Positions 16,676-48,900 of a stretch of DNA of 64,000 bases are shown piece by piece (position 1 is the first letter of the stretch; every line of letters starts with the position of its first letter). The stretch is from assembly GCA_963678705.1 (NCBI GenBank), contig OY783213.1, positions 14,884,451-14,948,450 on the forward strand, written 5' to 3'. Origin of the DNA: Panorpa germanica. Lineage: Eukaryota; Arthropoda; Insecta; Mecoptera; Panorpidae. Position numbers and translations under genes: made by a program. The notes beneath the pieces were generated by a model. The model had not been told where the DNA came from. It saw nothing but the letters and a program-made list of their open reading frames with translations, and did not search any database.

Positions 16676-16710
16676 GATTTATGTTATGTATGTTCTCGAA
16701 ATTTTTTGAT

Positions 16711-18910
16711 GCAGTTATGTTCGCTAGGCTTTAAATTAAATAACTGCTTCATTACATTTTTAATATCTACGCGATTCTGGCTTTTACGCGACCTTTTTTA
16801 AATTCATGGACTTTTTTTTCTAAATTTTTTTTGGATTTCTTGAAATTTTTTAATGCAGTTATGTTCGCTAGGCTTTAAATTAAAGAACTGCTTCATTACA
16901 TTTTAAATATCTATGCGATTCTGGCTTTTACGCAACCTTTTTTAAATTCATGGACTTTTTTTTTCTAAATTTTTCTTTGGATTTCTTGAAATTTTTTGAT
17001 GCAGTAATGTTCACTAGGCTTTAAATTAAAGAACTGCTTCATTACATTTTAAATATCTACGCGATTCTGGCTTTTACGCGACCTTTTTTAAATTTATGGA
17101 CTTTTTTTTCTAAATTTTTTTTTGGATTTCTTGAAATTTTTTGATGCAGTAATGTTCACTAGGCTTTAAATTAAAGAACTGCTTCATTACATTTTTAATA
17201 TCTACGCGATTCTGGCTTTTACGCGACCTTTTTTAAATTCATGGACTTTTTTTTCTAAATTTTTTTTGGATTTCTTGAAATTTTTTAATGCAGTTATGTT
17301 CGCTAGGCTTTAAATTAAAGAACTGCTTCATTACATTTTAAATATCTATGCGATTCTGGCTTTTACGCAACCTTTTTTAAATTCATGGACTTTTTTTTTC
17401 TAAATTTTTTTTTGGATTTCTTGAAATTTTTTGATGCAGTAATGTTCACTAGGCTTTAAATTAAAGAACTGCTTCATTACATTTTAAATATCTACGCGAT
17501 TCTGGCTTTTACGCGACCTTTTTTAAATACATGGACTTTTTTTTCTAAATTTTTCTTTGGATTTCTTGAAATTTTTTGATGCAGTAATGTTCACTAGGCT
17601 TTAAATTAAAGAACTGCTTGATTACATTTTAAATATCTACGCTATTCTGGCTTTTGCGTGACCTTTTTTAAATTCATGGACTTTTTTTTTCTAAATTTTT
17701 TTTTGGATTTCTTGAAATATTTTGATGCAGTAATGTTCGCTATGCTTTAAATTAAAGATCTGCTTCATTACATTTTAAATATCTATGCGATTCTGGCTTT
17801 TACGCGACCTTTTTTAAATTCATGGACTTTTTTTTTCTAAATTTTTTTTTGGATTTCTTGAAATATTTTGATGCAGTAATGTTCACTAGGCTTTAAATTA
17901 AAGATCTGCTTCATGACATTTTAAATATCTATGCGATTCTGGCTTTTACGCGACCTTTTTTAAATTCATGGACTTTTTCTTTCTAAATTTTTTTTTGGAT
18001 TTCTTGAAATATTTTGATGCAGTAATGTTCGCTAGGCTTTAAATTAAAGAACTGCTTCATTACATTTTAAATATCTATGCGATTCTGGCTTTTACGCGAC
18101 CTTTTTTAAATTCATGGACTTTTTTTTTCTAAATTTTTTTTTGGATTTCTTGAAATATTTTGATGCAGTAATGTTCGCTAGGCTTTAAATTAAAGATCTG
18201 CTTCATTACATTTTAAATATGTACGCGATTCTGGCTTTTGCGTGACCTTTTTTAAATTCATGGACTTTTTTTTTCTAAATTTTTTTTTGGATTTCTTGAA
18301 ATATTTTGATGCAGTAATGTTCGCTAGGCTTTAAATTAAAGATCTGCTTCATTACATTTTAAATATGTACGCGATTCTGGCTTTTGCGTGACCTTTTTTA
18401 AATTCATGGACTTTTTTTTTCTAAATTTTTTTTTGGATTTCTTGAAATATTTTGATGCAGTAATGTTCGCTAGACTTTAAATTAAAGATCTGCTTCATGA
18501 CATTTTAAATATCTATGCGATTCTGGCTTTTACGCGACCTTTTTTAAATTCATGGACTTTTTTTTTCAAAATTTTTTTTTGGATTTCTTGAAATATTTTG
18601 ATGCAGTAATGTTCGCTAGGCTTTAAATTAAAGAACTGCTTCATTACATTTTAAATATCTACGCAATTCTGGCTTTTACGCGACCTTTTTTAAATGCATG
18701 GACTTTTTTTTTCTAAATTTTTTTTTGGATTTCTTGAAATATTTTGATGCAGTAATGTTCACTAGGCTTTAAATTAAAGAACTGCTTCATTACATTTTAA
18801 ATATCTACGCGATTCTTGCTTTTACGCGACCTTTTTTAAATTCATGGACTTTTTTTTCTAAAATTTTTTTTTTTATTTTTTAAATTTTTTTGATGCAGTT
18901 ATGTTCGTTA
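16711..18910 (+). repeat. Left-arm ~146-bp tandem array (about 15 units)
   Basis: Unit starts at 16711, 16854, 17001, 17146, 17290, 17436, 17581, 17727, 17873, 18019, 18165, 18311, 18457, 18603, 18749 and 18895. Each unit holds a GCAG(T/A)(T)ATGTTCGCTAGGC box, CTGCTTCATTACATTTTAAA, TACGCGATTCTGGCTTTTAC and two T-runs. Confidence 0.95.
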
Positions 18911-19149
18911 TGGTCTAAAATAAGAAACTGCTTCATTAGATTTTAAATATCTACGCAGAAACTCAAAAAATTGCATTGCTCTTAAAATCATAAAAGTGAA
19001 CCTTTTCATCATTTTTAACAAGATTATAGTCTTCTTTCATTGAAAAACTCAAAGTAGAAAATATGTTATTTTTATAACGGTTTTTATATAATTTTGAATG
19101 CTGATTTCAAATTTGTAATTAATTTTTAGATAACTCTTTTGGTTTACCA

Positions 19150-19230
19150 GATATCGGCATAAAAATTCGAACTATTTTTATGAAAAGTAAGAAGACTATA
19201 CTCTTCTTACTTTTCATAAAAATTGAAGAA
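19150..19230. repeat. Central hairpin of the foldback element
   Basis: ATTTTTATGAAAAGTAAGAA (about 19174-19193) is followed after about 10 bases by TTCTTACTTTTCATAAAAAT, a near-perfect hairpin with a short loop. Confidence 0.85.
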
Positions 19231-19439
19231 AAAAATATCTTATTTTTATAACGGTTTTTAACTTAATTTTTAATGCAGATTTCAAATTTATAATTCATTT
19301 TTAAATAAGTATTTTAGTTTATGATATATCAATATATTAAATCTCCATATAGAAAGAAGACTATAATCTTGTTAAAAATGATGAAAAGGTTCACTTTTAT
19401 GATTTTAAGAGCAATGCAATTTTTTGAGTATCTGCGTAG

Positions 19440-20645
19440 ATATTTAAAATCTAATGAAGCAGTTCTTTATTTTAAAGCCTAGCGAACATAACTGTATCAA
19501 AAAATTTCAAGAAATCCAAAAAAAAATTTAGAAAAAAAAAGTCCATGAATTTAAAAAAGGTCGCGTAAAAGCCAGAATCGCGTAGATATTTAAAATGTAA
19601 TGAAGCAGTTATTTAAATTAAAGCCTAGCAAACATAACTGCATAAAAAAATTTCAAGAAATTCAAAAAAAATTTTAGAAAAAAAAGTCCATGAATTTAAA
19701 AAAGGTCGCGTAAATGCCAGAATCGCGTAGATATTTAAAATGTAATGAAGCAGTTATTTAGTTTAAAGCTTAGCAAACATAACTGCATCAAAAAATTTCA
19801 AGAAATCCAAAAAAAAATTTAGAAAAAAAAAGTCCATGAATTTAAAAAAGGTCGCGTAAAAGCCAGAATCGCGTACATATTTAAAATGTAATGAAGCAGT
19901 TATTTAAATTAAAGCCTAGCGAACATAACTGCATCAAAATATTTCAAGAAATAAAAAAAAAAAATTTAAGAAAAAAAAGTCCATGAAATTAAAAAAGGTC
20001 GCGTAAAAGCCAGAATCGCGTACATATTTAAAATGTAATGAAGCAGATCTTTAATTTAAAACAGAATTAACATAAGTGCATTAAAAATTTTCAAGAAATC
20101 CAAAAAAAATTTTAGAAAAAAAAAGTCCATGAATTTAAAAAAGGTCGCTAAAAGCCAGAATCGCGTAGATATTTAAAATGTAATGAAGCAGTTATTTAAA
20201 TTAAAGCCTAGCAAACATAACTGCATAAAAAAATTTCAAGAAATTAAAAAAAAATTTTAGAAAAAAAAGTCCATGAATTTAAAAAAGGTCGCGTAAATGC
20301 CAGAATCGCGTAGATATTTAAAATGTAATGAAGCAGATCTTTAATTTAAAGCCTAGCGAACATTACTGCATCAAAATATTTTAAGAAATCCAAAAAAAAA
20401 TTTAGAAAAAAAAAGTCCATGAATTTAAAAAAGGTAACGCAAAAGCCAGAATCGCGTAGATATTTAAAATGTAATGAAGCAGTTCTTTAATTTAAAGCCT
20501 AGCGAACATAACTGCATTAAAAATTTTCAAGAAATCCAAAAAAAATTGTAGAAAAAAAGGTCCATGAATTTAAAAAAGGTCGCGTAAAAGCCAGAATCGC
20601 GTAGATATTGGAAATGTAATTAAACAGTTCATCAATTTAAAGTGT
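19440..20645 (-). repeat. Right-arm ~146-bp tandem array (about 8 units)
   Basis: Same unit as the left arm in reverse complement. Landmarks such as AAAAGCCAGAATCGCGTA recur every 145-148 bases. The arm has about half the units of the left arm, and several units carry GCAAACATAACTGCAT variants not found on the left. Confidence 0.95.
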
Positions 20646-20756
20646 AGCGGATATAGAATAATTAAAAAATTAAACACATTTGAAATATTAATTATTTAAA
20701 AAACAAATACATAACTCACACTCGTTGTCTTGTGACGGGCCGAACAGCTAGTGAAT

Positions 20757-20972
20757 TTCAAATTTAAATAGAAATAAAATATTCTCATTTTTCTTGAATC
20801 AACAAGAGTATAACCTTCTTAAGAACCACGAATTTTTAATTTAAAGAGAAATAAAATTTTCTTTGTTTTTTGAAGCAACAAGAGTATAAACCTTCTTAAA
20901 AACCACGAATTTTTAAATTAAATAGAAATAAATTTTTATCAGTTTTCTTCTAGCAACAAGAGTACCTTCTTA
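20757..20972 (+). repeat. Three-copy ~77-bp tandem repeat
   Basis: Three units at about 20760, 20837 and 20914, each with AAATAGAAATAAAATxTTCT, CAACAAGAGTATAA and CCTTCTTAAxAACCACGAAT. It abuts the foldback element but is unrelated to its unit. Confidence 0.8.
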
Positions 20973-30700: not shown

Positions 30701-33700
30701 CGTTGGAACCAGAATCATTTTTTTATTTCAATAACTTCATATTTCAAAAGCTCGCATTTTGTGTATTAAATGGCGCGCATTTTGTCAATTTTCAATATTT
30801 TTTCTCTCATACTCATACTAATTAATAATTTTCTTGGTTTTTATTTTTGAGATAAATAGAAGAACCAAAATCGACAACAACGTCCTGGTCCAATTTCTTG
30901 ACAGGGTCTAATTCAGCATCATTTTTAACATATTTAACAACATTTTTAAATTTCAAAAAAGATTTTTTTGTATGTAGAATAAGTGTAATGATAAGCCTAA
31001 AAAGTTAAAATATCGTTTTTCATAATTTTTATTATAAAAAAACAATCCTCAAAATACCTTAAATTTAGGACCTCTAGACCCTGTCTCCCCTTAATACTTT
31101 AACTCTAAATACTACCAGGAAATATTACCTACTCCATGATAAATCCTTAATCAAACATATAGAGAAAAGATCAGTAACTAAAGAATAACGTGAACGAATA
31201 TCTTACCTGACTCGAGAACTGTGAACTGTAAGTCGGTCGCGGCACCGGCTGGCATGAAGAATGTCCATAGTTAAGTTGTGAGGGCGCTGGCATCCAGGCG
31301 CTGCAAGGAACGGGCAAATATTTATAACTGGTTGACATTTTACAACAGAAAAGCTAGGCAGAAAAGGCAGACCATGCAAAAGCAAGATATGGACTGTTTT
31401 TGACTGCAAATAGCAAACCATAATCTTCATCAGATGAAGTATACTTGTTCAAAACAATCTTGTAACTTCCTTACAAATCAGTAACTACGGTTGCAGAATT
31501 AGAAGAGGATTGTGCCCAAGAAAATGGATTTAGGACCTGTCAAACTATTGTAAATTTCAGCAAGAGGTGTCATTTTAAATCAACAGAAAAACACAATATT
31601 TTCGCGAAAACTTGGGATACTTTTATTTTAATCCACCACACAAGAACAATATTTTGCCAAATGTCAATGGTGATAGTTAAAAAAATGGCGCGAAATTTAA
31701 AATGACAGCTCTTGTTTAAGACCCTATATTATTTAGCATCTTAAGAGGGATTTTTATTTTATTGTAGGATACAAAACATAGTTTTTGGATGTGTCTAAGC
31801 GGATGTGGCGCATCGACAATGGTGTGAGCGGAGCAAACGTGCCAGGGCACATACTTTTGTGTTACGAATTCAATAGCCTAGAAGCCAATGCAATTAAGTA
31901 AAAAAAAATCTATAAATCACTGATTCTTAAGCCCGTCCGCAAACGGATCGACTAGTTTGAATAGAAGTGTTAGGATATAAAAAAATGGACATTAATTACG
32001 AGAAAGCATTAGAATTGCAATTTAGGCATTGGCACTTGCTTTCAAATTTCCTGTATTTTGAAGTAAAAAACGAATTTTATCGTCAAATATATATATATTG
32101 ACAGTAAGAAGTATATTCGCTTAAAGTTGAATTAGACCTACACATAGCCTTTGCGTCGTTCTAACACCTCATGAAATTAACTAAATTTGTTGTAACGGTT
32201 CATTTTCTTTAAGGATTCCGTGAGTTCGTCTCCCAATTATGTGTAAAGTTATGAAAAATATGACCCGATCTCATATATTGGGGCGGTTGCAGGCAGGGCA
32301 CATGACGGTTTAAAAGCAATTTGTCTTTGTCGTAGAGAGAGAAAGATAATACCATATGAACATATTGAGTAGATAGAGATAACGCTATTAATTTTGTCTT
32401 GGAATAAATTTTTCGTATGTGACGTTTCCCAAAATGTTCTCATGGTGCATACCGAATTGCCAGACTTATTGCCAGTCGTATCTCTTGTGCTCTTACTTGC
32501 GCTGTTGATCACTGAGTTGAAGTTGAGTGATTTCGGGTACAGGGGTTAGCCATTGAAATGTGAAGGACAAGTATCAATGCCTAACAAGGCAGCGAGTGTG
32601 GTGAGTCATTAGTGTATGCAAGAACGAATTAATCAATGATCGATTACTAGTGATTGATTATTGATTGTGGTGCAATACCTTGAATATGGGCGATGCGCAT
32701 AATTGGTCCAGTTGTTGCTAAGATGTGAGAAGAATACATACAATTATTATCTAATTAAAACAAGTTAAGTCGTGATATATGCAAGGACACCAAATGTATC
32801 AACTACGTAAAAAGTATGTAAGGTTGGAGGTAGAAACTAACCTGTCGTATCTGGAATAGGGTTGGTAAGCAGGAGGGGCTGCGAACAGATTCCGCGTCAG
32901 GTGATGACTGCCTCCAGAAAATACGCCTGGATCAGCGAATAATCCCTTGGGATAACCTCCACCTGTTGAACGGTACGGCCGCTTCATGCGACGCCGTCGT
33001 CTGTAGTTGCCGTTTTCGAACATGTCTTCGTATTGTGGATCTGCAATTTTGGAAAATCTATTTTAACATATTTTTTACAATAATCCGCGATGAAAAGTAT
33101 TAGTGTATAATCGATATTAATCGACAACGCAACCAAGAATTAAATATCACTTTAATGGAAATAATTTGATCTAAATTCGTCCGCATTAGTAAGTGTAATT
33201 TTTCTTCAAATTTTCTTTAAGTTTGTTCAAGAAAAGATTCCAGAACAAACTATTTATCGGAATCAGAATCAGAATCGTATTAGATAGCGTAAAGCCCACT
33301 TAAAATGACAGCTCCAGTTGATACTGTCGTATAACTATTTTTGAGGTTATTATACAAGGAAAATGAACGTTTAATATCTCGATCGTTGTCTATCCGCCAT
33401 TGTTAAAGGGGTGGTAAGTCAGTAGAAGATTCACACCCTAACAGGTTGCGTCAGTGAAAATAATCGTGACTCACCAAGTGTCCAGTAGTTGCCTTTCCGT
33501 TCACCTCCCCCCTCCCTAGGAACCTTTACAAAACATTCATTTAAAGATAAATTGTGTCGTATTGAATTTTGCCATCCTTTTTTGTTACGTTCAAAATATG
33601 GGAATCGTCCTGTGATGAAGGAGTAGATTTCACTAAGGGTCGCGCGTTTCATTGGAGAACTCTGTGAAAAGAAGGATCAAATAAATTACGTCGCAATTTG

Positions 33701-45900: not shown

Positions 45901-48900
45901 ACTAAGAAATTACGTTTTAGAAAATAGGAATACAAGCATGGTTTTATTGTAGACATTTATTTATTAATTAGAAGGTGTTCCCTAAGAAGGGCGTTCGTGG
46001 AAGGCAGGTCCGTATTTATTAAATATAGTGACAATGATGTAGCCCGTAGTGTATTAATTTTTTCTCGAAATTTTAAGTGAATTAGAGGTTCATCTAGTGG
46101 CAGATTAACCACTTAGCTTACCCCAAACGCACCATAGTTTTTGAGACAACTTCTAAAACTTATAATGGAAAAATTATATGGAAACAAGCAAAACCACTGC
46201 AAAATTGTTTTATTTATATAGTAAGTTTATTACAAATTATATTCTTATATATCTTAGCTATCCAGAAAACTGAGTTAGAAAGTGTGTATTTCTTTACCTG
46301 CTTTTTCTTTTGCCTAACATAACGTAAGATTGCACAACAAATTACATATGTTGTTACATATTATATTAATATAATGCGGAATGTTTCAAGTAGAAAATTG
46401 TTTTGCAGTGTAAGTTTACAGTTGCTAGCTTATAACAAACTTATTCTAAGATTCATTTTGTACTTCTAATATATATGGTCTTTCAATAAGAGCGCCCGAT
46501 TAGTATCATCTCATATGAAACACCTTTATACAACTTATATGGATATACAGTGTGTTTGTTTTATATGAGATTATACAAAATTCTGTGCTTTTATTGAAAC
46601 ACACTATAGAAATTGTCTTGCAATGTAAGTTTCACGTTGCTAACTACTACAAAGAAATTTCAGTGTTACATTTTCTATCGGGGGTCTTTTAAATTTATTT
46701 AATGACTATGTATTAGAATTTTTGTAAATAATAATTAAGTAAAAAATATTACGTTTAGTGTTAAATGGGTCGTGTCTTTGGGATCACAAAATACATAACT
46801 GTTTTATCTAATAAAAAATGCACTTGCCTCATTTTTAAAATAAACGGATGCTTGTAGAAAGAACATTGGACATTTGGAGGTCGGACGTTTTTGGTTGGGT
46901 GTTTTGTTGTTGCCTTTTGCAGCGAATGGTCAACAAGAGGAACCCTGTATTTGTTCTTAACCGTGGGAGTACTCGTATGTGAATTACCGACGCGACAGCC
47001 TCGAGCGAATGTTCAGCTCCTTCAGTTAGTGTTTGGCGTGTCAATAACAGTACACGACAGCAATCATGTGACCGCGTTCCAGGAACTTGAACATAATTGA
47101 CTCATGCACGGACATTGATCAACGACCAACAGGCAATAGGCAAACAGCAAGTAGTTAACTGCAAGTTGCACCGGGAACACTATACTCGTGCATTCAAAAG
47201 TCAGAAGTTACAGCTCCAAAAAAGTACAAAGAAATGAAATAATGCCAGCAAAGAATAATTGATCAAGATCAGGCCCTTAAAGCACTGCTCTAATATGAAC
47301 ATGACTCACAGAAAGCTCATTGTAGAAAATTAACATTTAAGATTACGTAAAAGTCATATTCTAACAACAATAACTCTTAAATTATGCAGTCCAGAGCAAT
47401 GATTTTGATGTCGTATATTATTATTAATTGTTTATTGTTCGCCTTTCGGCTTTACAATCTACATTCTTAATACATTTCATTTACTTCAACTTACAATTAA
47501 ATTTACATTATTCTAGACCTTTTTATTTCCAAAAGTACTTTCTGCTTCTTCTTCTCTTGACCCTCTTCCTTTATTTTCCCTAGTCTTCCTTCTGTACTGG
47601 TCTATTCCCTAGTCTATTTTTCTGGGCTGAAGTTTAACTGTTTCCTCGCTACTTCTTTCTTTCTCCTGCTTCCCTTCACTGCCTCTTTTAGTACTTCCTT
47701 TCTCTTCCTGTTCCTTGTGCAACCCAGCCACCAGCTTATTTATTCTCCTGTTTTTTCTTTCCTTCTTACTATTTCCGCCATCCACCTCTTTCCTTCACTG
47801 CCTCCCTTTAATAGCTGGCCAATATTCCTTTCGCTCGCTACTTTTTCCTTACACTCAAACTTAATGTGCTCCAGTGTTTCGTCCTCTGCTCCGCACACTC
47901 TACACTTTCTTTCCTCACTACTTTCCCAGTATCTGTTTCCTTTTTCGTCATTTCCCAATCTAAACCTTGCTGTTCTTCTTATGTGTTTTATGTCTTTTTC
48001 TATAAGGTACTGAGGCACATTATTTTCCCATAACCTTTTATATCTTGTATTGTAGTTGCTTTTTTCGATTTTTCCCATTCTCTCCTGTTGTTGTTTTGAT
48101 GTCGTATATGAAAGTATATTTTAATAAGTGAAAAGTATATTTCCTACTGTTAAGTATTTGAATATTCTTTTGATATGTTGTTTAATGTTAAATAACGTTA
48201 TCAGATATTATGTTTTTATCATTGACTGCAATCAAATTTATAAATGAACTGTTAAGTACATGTTTCGAGTTTCTATAATTAGTTTAATGAACATGACATT
48301 ATTCGAACAAGTAACGAAGGCTCCTGCCTGGAATGGCTGATAGCTGGGCCTTGTAATTCATGTTGACAGGACAAATTAGTGTTAACTATTTACTCGTATT
48401 ATAAATCTAAACTATCCGTGATAATAATTGTGTAGCTTATAGCAGGGCTGCGGAGTCGGTAAAAAAACATCCTACTCCGACTACGGATAATTTTATTTAT
48501 CCGACTCCAGATATTTTTATTTATCCGACTCCGGATAATTTTATTTATCCGACTCCAGATAATTTTATTTATCCGACTTCGAATAATTTTATTTATCCGA
48601 CTCCAGATAATTTTATTTATCCGACTCCGACTCCGACCAAGTAAAATACTAAGACATTTTGTGTTGAATATTTTGCATATTTTGAAAGGGCAGTTGGCAG
48701 AACCTTGTTTCTTTATTATTAATTCTCTATAAAAAGTGTATCTTGATTAAAAAACAAATGGATTAGGTAAAAAATATTACGCTTAATAATACAAGAGTTT
48801 ACGTTTTGTGTTTAATGGGTAAAAACTGAAAAAAATCCGACCATTAAAATATAGTTCACATCCCAATTGTCACAGTTATATCACCAATTGATACACAGTA

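Follow-up and report, generated by a model that had tools for sequence, protein, structure and literature searches.

The window, a stretch of 64,000 nucleotides from the scorpionfly Panorpa germanica, contains a non-coding locus in which two arrays of a 146-bp unit face each other around a short centre. The features of this locus, with the evidence on which each was placed, are as follows.

16693..18956, + strand: left arm, tandem 146-bp units (TRF: about 15.5 copies; profile search: 15 full units)
18957..19038, + strand: left copy of the 82-bp module (C), with conservation highest in its inner 62 bp (module comparison)
19039..19351, no strand: centre, in the window copy palindromic only at the apex (self against reverse complement)
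19182..19215, no strand: apex hairpin (self-alignment)
19352..19433, - strand: 82-bp module (C), right copy, inverted, differing from the left copy at 1 of 82 positions
19434..20649, - strand: right arm, tandem units in the opposite orientation (TRF: about 8.3 copies; profile search: 7 full units)
20610..20751, + strand: 3' end region of the Helitron, in which a diverged unit runs into a tip of about 41 bp (blast search of this end against the loci)
20721..20739, + strand: proposed 3' terminal hairpin CTCGTTG-loop-TGACGGG, weak, 12 nt before the 3' end (sequence)
20748..20751, + strand: 3' terminus CTAG, with the target T at 20752 (flank alignments, end scan)

A preliminary description of this DNA had reported inverted arms of about 15 and about 8 tandem 146-bp units, enclosing an inverted central domain and a tight hairpin in a non-coding locus, and this architecture was borne out. 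According to TRF, the left arm has a period of 146 with 15.5 copies and 95% matches, whereas the right arm gives periods of 145, 146 and 291, with 8.3 copies of 145. When the locus was aligned to its own reverse complement, 2,936 bp aligned at 87.6% with a bit score of 3580, compared with 54.5 bits for the best of 20 Markov-chain (approximate dinucleotide) shuffles. The stretch 17247-17788 pairs with 19434-19975 over 542 nt at 92% complementarity, and the 25 longest inverted pairs are 84-94% complementary, meaning that paired arms differ by 6-16%. The inverted central domain, at 18957-19433, contains the two 82-bp modules at the inner edges of the arms, with the hairpin at the apex between them. 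No stop-to-stop ORF of at least 110 aa is present within the locus, for which reason a coding element was rejected. A known RNA family was rejected as well, given that the window showed no Rfam match at gathering thresholds.

The window copy lies on the + strand and its real 3' end is at 20751, beyond the position 20650 given in the preliminary description. Its 5' end was not found in the end scan described below, and its left arm starts at about 16693. Directly past the 3' end, at 20753-20964, lies a 77-bp tandem repeat of 2.7 copies. A near-palindromic box in it recurs in the apex of the element and, in other loci, in dispersed repeats about 87 bp long. Elsewhere in the window, we observed exons of a COPA/B-type coatomer gene near the left end (163-1767), a forkhead domain (33434-33676) and, below threshold, a match to a reverse-transcriptase-associated zinc-binding domain (47743-48120).

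The genome (464.2 Mb, GCA_963678705.1) was searched with a 601-bp unit query, which gave 244 matches (40 of 1211 candidates scored), and with a centre query, which gave 90 matches (40 of 955 candidates scored); the centre also matches itself inverted. Thirty further loci (L009-L038) were read, making 31 with the window. This sample is non-random: the unit matches supplied 20 of the loci, and the other 10 were selected because their 5' region was long or their centre good. The preliminary description had proposed looking for other head-to-head loci, and all 31 loci read carry full units in both orientations, arranged head-to-head. In place of the ordinary satellite that it had set against its own reading, the genome contains a dispersed multicopy element with defined ends and head-to-head tandem arms, rather than a lone satellite.

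The arms of this element vary in length. By profile search, they comprise 1-15 full units, the left and right counts are weakly correlated (Spearman 0.43, p 0.017, 31 loci), and one arm is at least twice the other in 6 of the 31 loci, the window included. Unit divergence amounts to 7.9% within the same arm, 9.3% between opposite arms of one locus and 11.2% between loci; within an arm, divergence rises from 6.9% for adjacent units to 8.7-10% at a distance of five units or more. As adjacent units are the closest, and as the window copy contains identical adjacent units at 18148 and 18294, the data fit units being duplicated locally, whether by slippage or by unequal exchange. The earlier suggestion that unequal exchange produced the arm asymmetry is compatible with this variation in arm length and with the greater likeness of neighbouring units. 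Of the 26 centres compared, 15 are palindromic along 92% or more of their length (73-97% identity). The remaining 11, which include the centre of the window copy, match their own reverse complement only over 32-54 bp, located at the apex or close to it.

Flank alignments revealed two unlike ends. With a slash marking the junction between element and flank, the 5' end reads A/TCCTATATTATAATG... and the 3' end reads ...GCGACGGGCCGAACAGCTAG/T, finishing in CAGCTAG. The 31 loci were scanned for these ends with strings from our own alignments, namely a 3' 26-mer with at most 5 mismatches and a 5' 16-mer with at most 2 mismatches. Seventeen 3' ends were recovered, all of which are followed by a T that was absent from the search string. 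Their terminal tetranucleotides are CTAG in 14 cases and CTAA, TTAG and ATAG in one case each; CTRR is thus present in 15 of 17, with a search string that itself contained CTAG and allowed up to 5 mismatches in 26. Among the nine 5' ends, eight start with TC, the search string itself having begun with TCC, and seven are preceded by an A that was absent from the string. By these thresholds, both ends are present in 5 of the 31 loci (L010, L015, L019, L030 and L032), and by inspection no target duplication was seen in any of the five. In L010, a second 5' end follows straight after the 3' end, forming a head-to-tail junction.

Another 20 3' ends were taken with a pattern containing CTAGT, for a total of 37. 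Beyond the junction, 19 of these continue into a flank that none of the others shares, and the other 18 fall into four common-flank groups (7, 4, 4 and 3 members), so that at least 23 settings back the same boundary. The 21-nt 3' end occurs 79 times in the genome with at most one mismatch, compared with 0 occurrences of the reversed control, and the 3' tip gave 0 matches as an exact pattern in viral contigs. Canonical Helitrons are recognised by a 5' TC, a 3' CTRR and insertion at AT without duplicating the target (PMC3789558 and PMC4067079). Judging from the alignments, the element displays these canonical ends and this insertion site: TC...CTAG, an A/T target and no duplication.

The inverted arms start about 430 bp inside the 5' end, as measured in L010, and about 41 bp inside the 3' end. 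The 108 bp preceding the 3' tip match the units at 67-79%, and this resemblance indicates that the arm unit was probably derived from the Helitron 3' subterminal region. A canonical Helitron also has a hairpin of 16-20 nt at about 11 nt from its 3' terminus. Near the 3' end of the present element, an imperfect 19-nt palindrome located 12 nt from the terminus could form a hairpin of 7 bp with two T.G pairs; its folding is no better than that of shuffles and it is not the minimum-energy fold in the window copy.

An empty-site query was built by joining the 5' flank of L035 to the 3' flank of L038, that is, from the flanks of different filled copies. Of 1594 candidate matches to this joined query, 40 were scored, and all 40 run through the junction; 10 of these were fetched, and all 10 show neither a gap nor a duplication there. 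The junction reads ATATA/TAGTA in 8 of the 10, and a G precedes TAGTA (G/T) in the other 2; the flanks of L033, L009, L020 and L054 are consistent with an ATATA/TAGTA junction. The FB-type target duplications of 8-10 bp, which had been proposed as a check, were not seen, and the empty sites rejoin without duplication. These empty sites are copies of another repeat, one position of which is occupied by several copies of the element and whose end sequence seems hAT-like. Flanks of this carrier repeat were observed on one or both sides in L009, L020, L033, L034, L035, L038, L039-L041 and L054. This arrangement suggests that the Helitron also travels as a passenger within another repeat. At C19:10974032-10985245 (L039-L041), three 3' ends lie 5.2-5.7 kb apart with the same 3' flank, and these loci are perhaps a tandemly repeated composite.

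We conclude that the window copy is very probably a 5'-truncated member of a non-autonomous Helitron (rolling-circle transposon) family in the scorpionfly genome. The element order is 5' end, tandem array, 82-bp module, centre, module and array reversed, and 3' end. The head-to-head arms of all 31 loci, together with an arm layout of tandem units, inner domain and middle domain like that given for Tetris in PMC4079207, would also suit a foldback transposon of the FB, Galileo or Tetris type, moved by a cut-and-paste transposase and bounded by long inverted repeats of tandem units. This is highly improbable for the present element, as its ends are unlike in sequence, no terminal inverted repeats reach both ends, the termini are TC...CTAG, and an A/T target without duplication, as seen at the empty site, contradicts it. 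The resemblance to Drosophila FB elements that had been noted earlier holds for the head-to-head tandem arms and fails for FB membership, since the ends differ and are not reached by the inverted arms. That the element belongs to the Drosophila FB family was rejected on the strength of its unlike ends, its Helitron insertion site and the lack of an 8-10 bp duplication.

Ordinary satellite arrays inverted by chance, or an assembly artefact, account for the data with a probability that is close to negligible. Units do duplicate locally, and three exact-match module clusters on C2 (10, 5 and 14 sites) are on one strand each by exact match, as might be expected of a satellite. Against this stand the defined ends, the empty site and the head-to-head arrangement in 31 of 31 loci. 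In addition, the 100 exact module places listed (C1 and C2) form 36 clusters, of which 22 are convergent, 0 divergent, 10 single and 4 one-strand; L036 is one of these last four, and the opposite module is present there with mismatches. Because paired arms are only 84-94% complementary, the locus is not a folded read. An artefact is very unlikely given both orientations in every locus read, the 6-16% difference between arms and the HiFi basis of the assembly, as stated in PMC11464959. A further reading concerns how copies are now added: many could spread as passengers in other repeats or in larger duplications, and not by rolling-circle movement of their own. We regard this as rather unlikely. 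The common-flank groups, with 18 of 37 3' ends, imply fewer insertions than copies and many copies multiplied along with their flanks; the largest group sits at one carrier-repeat site, with L009, L020, L038, L039-L041 and L054 on the 3' side and L020, L033, L034 and L035 on the 5' side. Conversely, 19 of the 37 3' ends have their own flank, and the common boundary with its A/T target shows that the Helitron has moved by itself too. Passenger spread is compatible with the Helitron explanation, as it concerns the later addition of copies.

With regard to the machinery, Helitron_like_N genes are abundant in this genome (150 scored of 893 candidates); those listed are all above the cut-off, many in long open frames. 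A comparison by eye found no Rep gene near the 79 3' ends among the 150 scored of 893; the closest Rep gene and 3' end are separated by about 300 kb. Neither these 150 scored Helitron_like_N genes nor the region downstream of one Rep gene yielded an autonomous partner sharing the ends of the element. This downstream region contains an open frame that, from its motifs, is presumably the helicase part, as well as a candidate 3' end, CAGCTAG/T, which is like that of the element and was picked by eye among eight CTRRT strings. A blast of the element ends and centre against the same region gave only 16-18 bp hits (E 0.005-0.055), which were taken as chance. The scored Rep genes are located at 1.8-9.6 Mb on C1, 1.6-18.4 Mb on C2 and 19-21 Mb on C6, and the foldback copies or ends, among the matches listed, at 19-28, 20-23.5 and 0.3-10 Mb, respectively. 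On these top-scored or listed hits, the two seem to occupy different chromosome regions.

Module C flanks the centre at the inner edge of both arms in inverted orientation. For its comparison, only nearly full-length hits at an identity of 85% or more were taken, which left 58 of the 62 possible arms; both arms of L010 and one each of L023 and L037 lack such a hit. Between the arms retained by this identity filter, which favours conserved copies, though few were dropped, divergence is 1.0-1.9% in the inner 62 bp and 5.6% in the first 20 bp. Outside the module, divergence in 50-bp bins ranges from 9.1% (nearest) to 23%. On the inside, the bins give 34% (only 276 of 1653 pairs countable), 19% and 23%, values that partly reflect a mixture of two centre versions. 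The divergence between modules is 1.8% for the left and right copies within a locus and 2.4% across loci, and exchange within loci alone is therefore not enough for the constancy of the module. Genome-wide, a 38-bp piece of the module has 795 forward and 895 reverse occurrences with at most 2 mismatches, compared with 0 for the reversed-pattern control. A further locus, L070, has seven near-full-length units 82-85% identical to those of the window and six long module hits of 96-99%; the ends of the foldback Helitron family were not found in it. At 4004-4744 of L070, module C itself occurs in tandem with a period of about 165 bp.

This constancy can be read in two ways: the module may be under selection because it acts in cis, or loci may exchange sequence over the module stretch only. 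In the mechanism that we propose for the Helitron family, Rep/helicase from other Helitrons of the genome would move the element via a single-stranded or circular intermediate. The foldback would go back to an ancestor in which an array of the 3' subterminal unit underwent snap-back copying at a near-palindromic box, it would have spread later, and the arm lengths would drift through slippage or unequal exchange. The near-constancy of the module would reflect a need of the copies for it in cis, where it might act as a hairpin base or as a protein-binding site. A bolder version, which we put forward tentatively and consider possible but doubtful, makes the giant inverted repeat part of the rolling-circle life cycle: the single-stranded intermediate would fold on the near-constant 82-bp module and the apex box, and copies without the module would stop spreading. 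The module would then be a new kind of internal cis-acting Helitron element, retained even where the arms have diverged.

Drosophila FB and Galileo are TIR elements with target duplications, and their inverted arms contain tandem subrepeats and are asymmetric in length. The present element has such asymmetric, inverted tandem-subrepeat arms in common with them, but neither TIRs nor target duplications were found in it. Among the systems found, Tetris is the nearest in arm layout and Mothra is the nearest Helitron. Tetris, a foldback element of Drosophila virilis, has a flanking domain, variable tandem repeats, inner and middle domains and inverted arms, and its repeats resemble part of the flanking domain (PMC4079207). 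Terminal inverted repeats form the boundaries of Tetris, whereas the present element has two unlike Helitron ends. Mothra, a non-autonomous Helitron of rice, has TC...CTAG ends and two tandem-repeat blocs in which unit number, order and orientation vary between copies (PMC4683698). Its two blocs are different repeats, whereas a single unit makes up both arms of the element, which are set head-to-head with an inverted 82-bp module between them. The non-autonomous Helentrons HINE and DINE-1 are rolling-circle elements that also carry tandem arrays, but they have subterminal inverted repeats, with central repeats between two modules (PMC7492417 and PMC4067079); the element instead has TC/CTRR ends and two inverted arrays. 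In the open-access literature searched, we came across no Helitron described as having head-to-head arrays, opposed arms built from one unit, or large palindromes, nor any account of Helitrons in Panorpa.

The foldback architecture is usually read as a mark of TIR transposons. As the same layout is present here between Helitron ends, the mechanism cannot be told from a foldback shape alone, and we call this a foldback architecture reached by convergence in a non-autonomous Helitron. Repeat annotators may misfile foldback-shaped Helitron copies. The many long palindromes in one genome may be candidates for chromosome breakage and rearrangement. Finally, the internal sequences of Helitrons are usually thought dispensable, and an internal module that is several-fold better conserved than its surroundings leads to a testable cis-element hypothesis for Helitrons.
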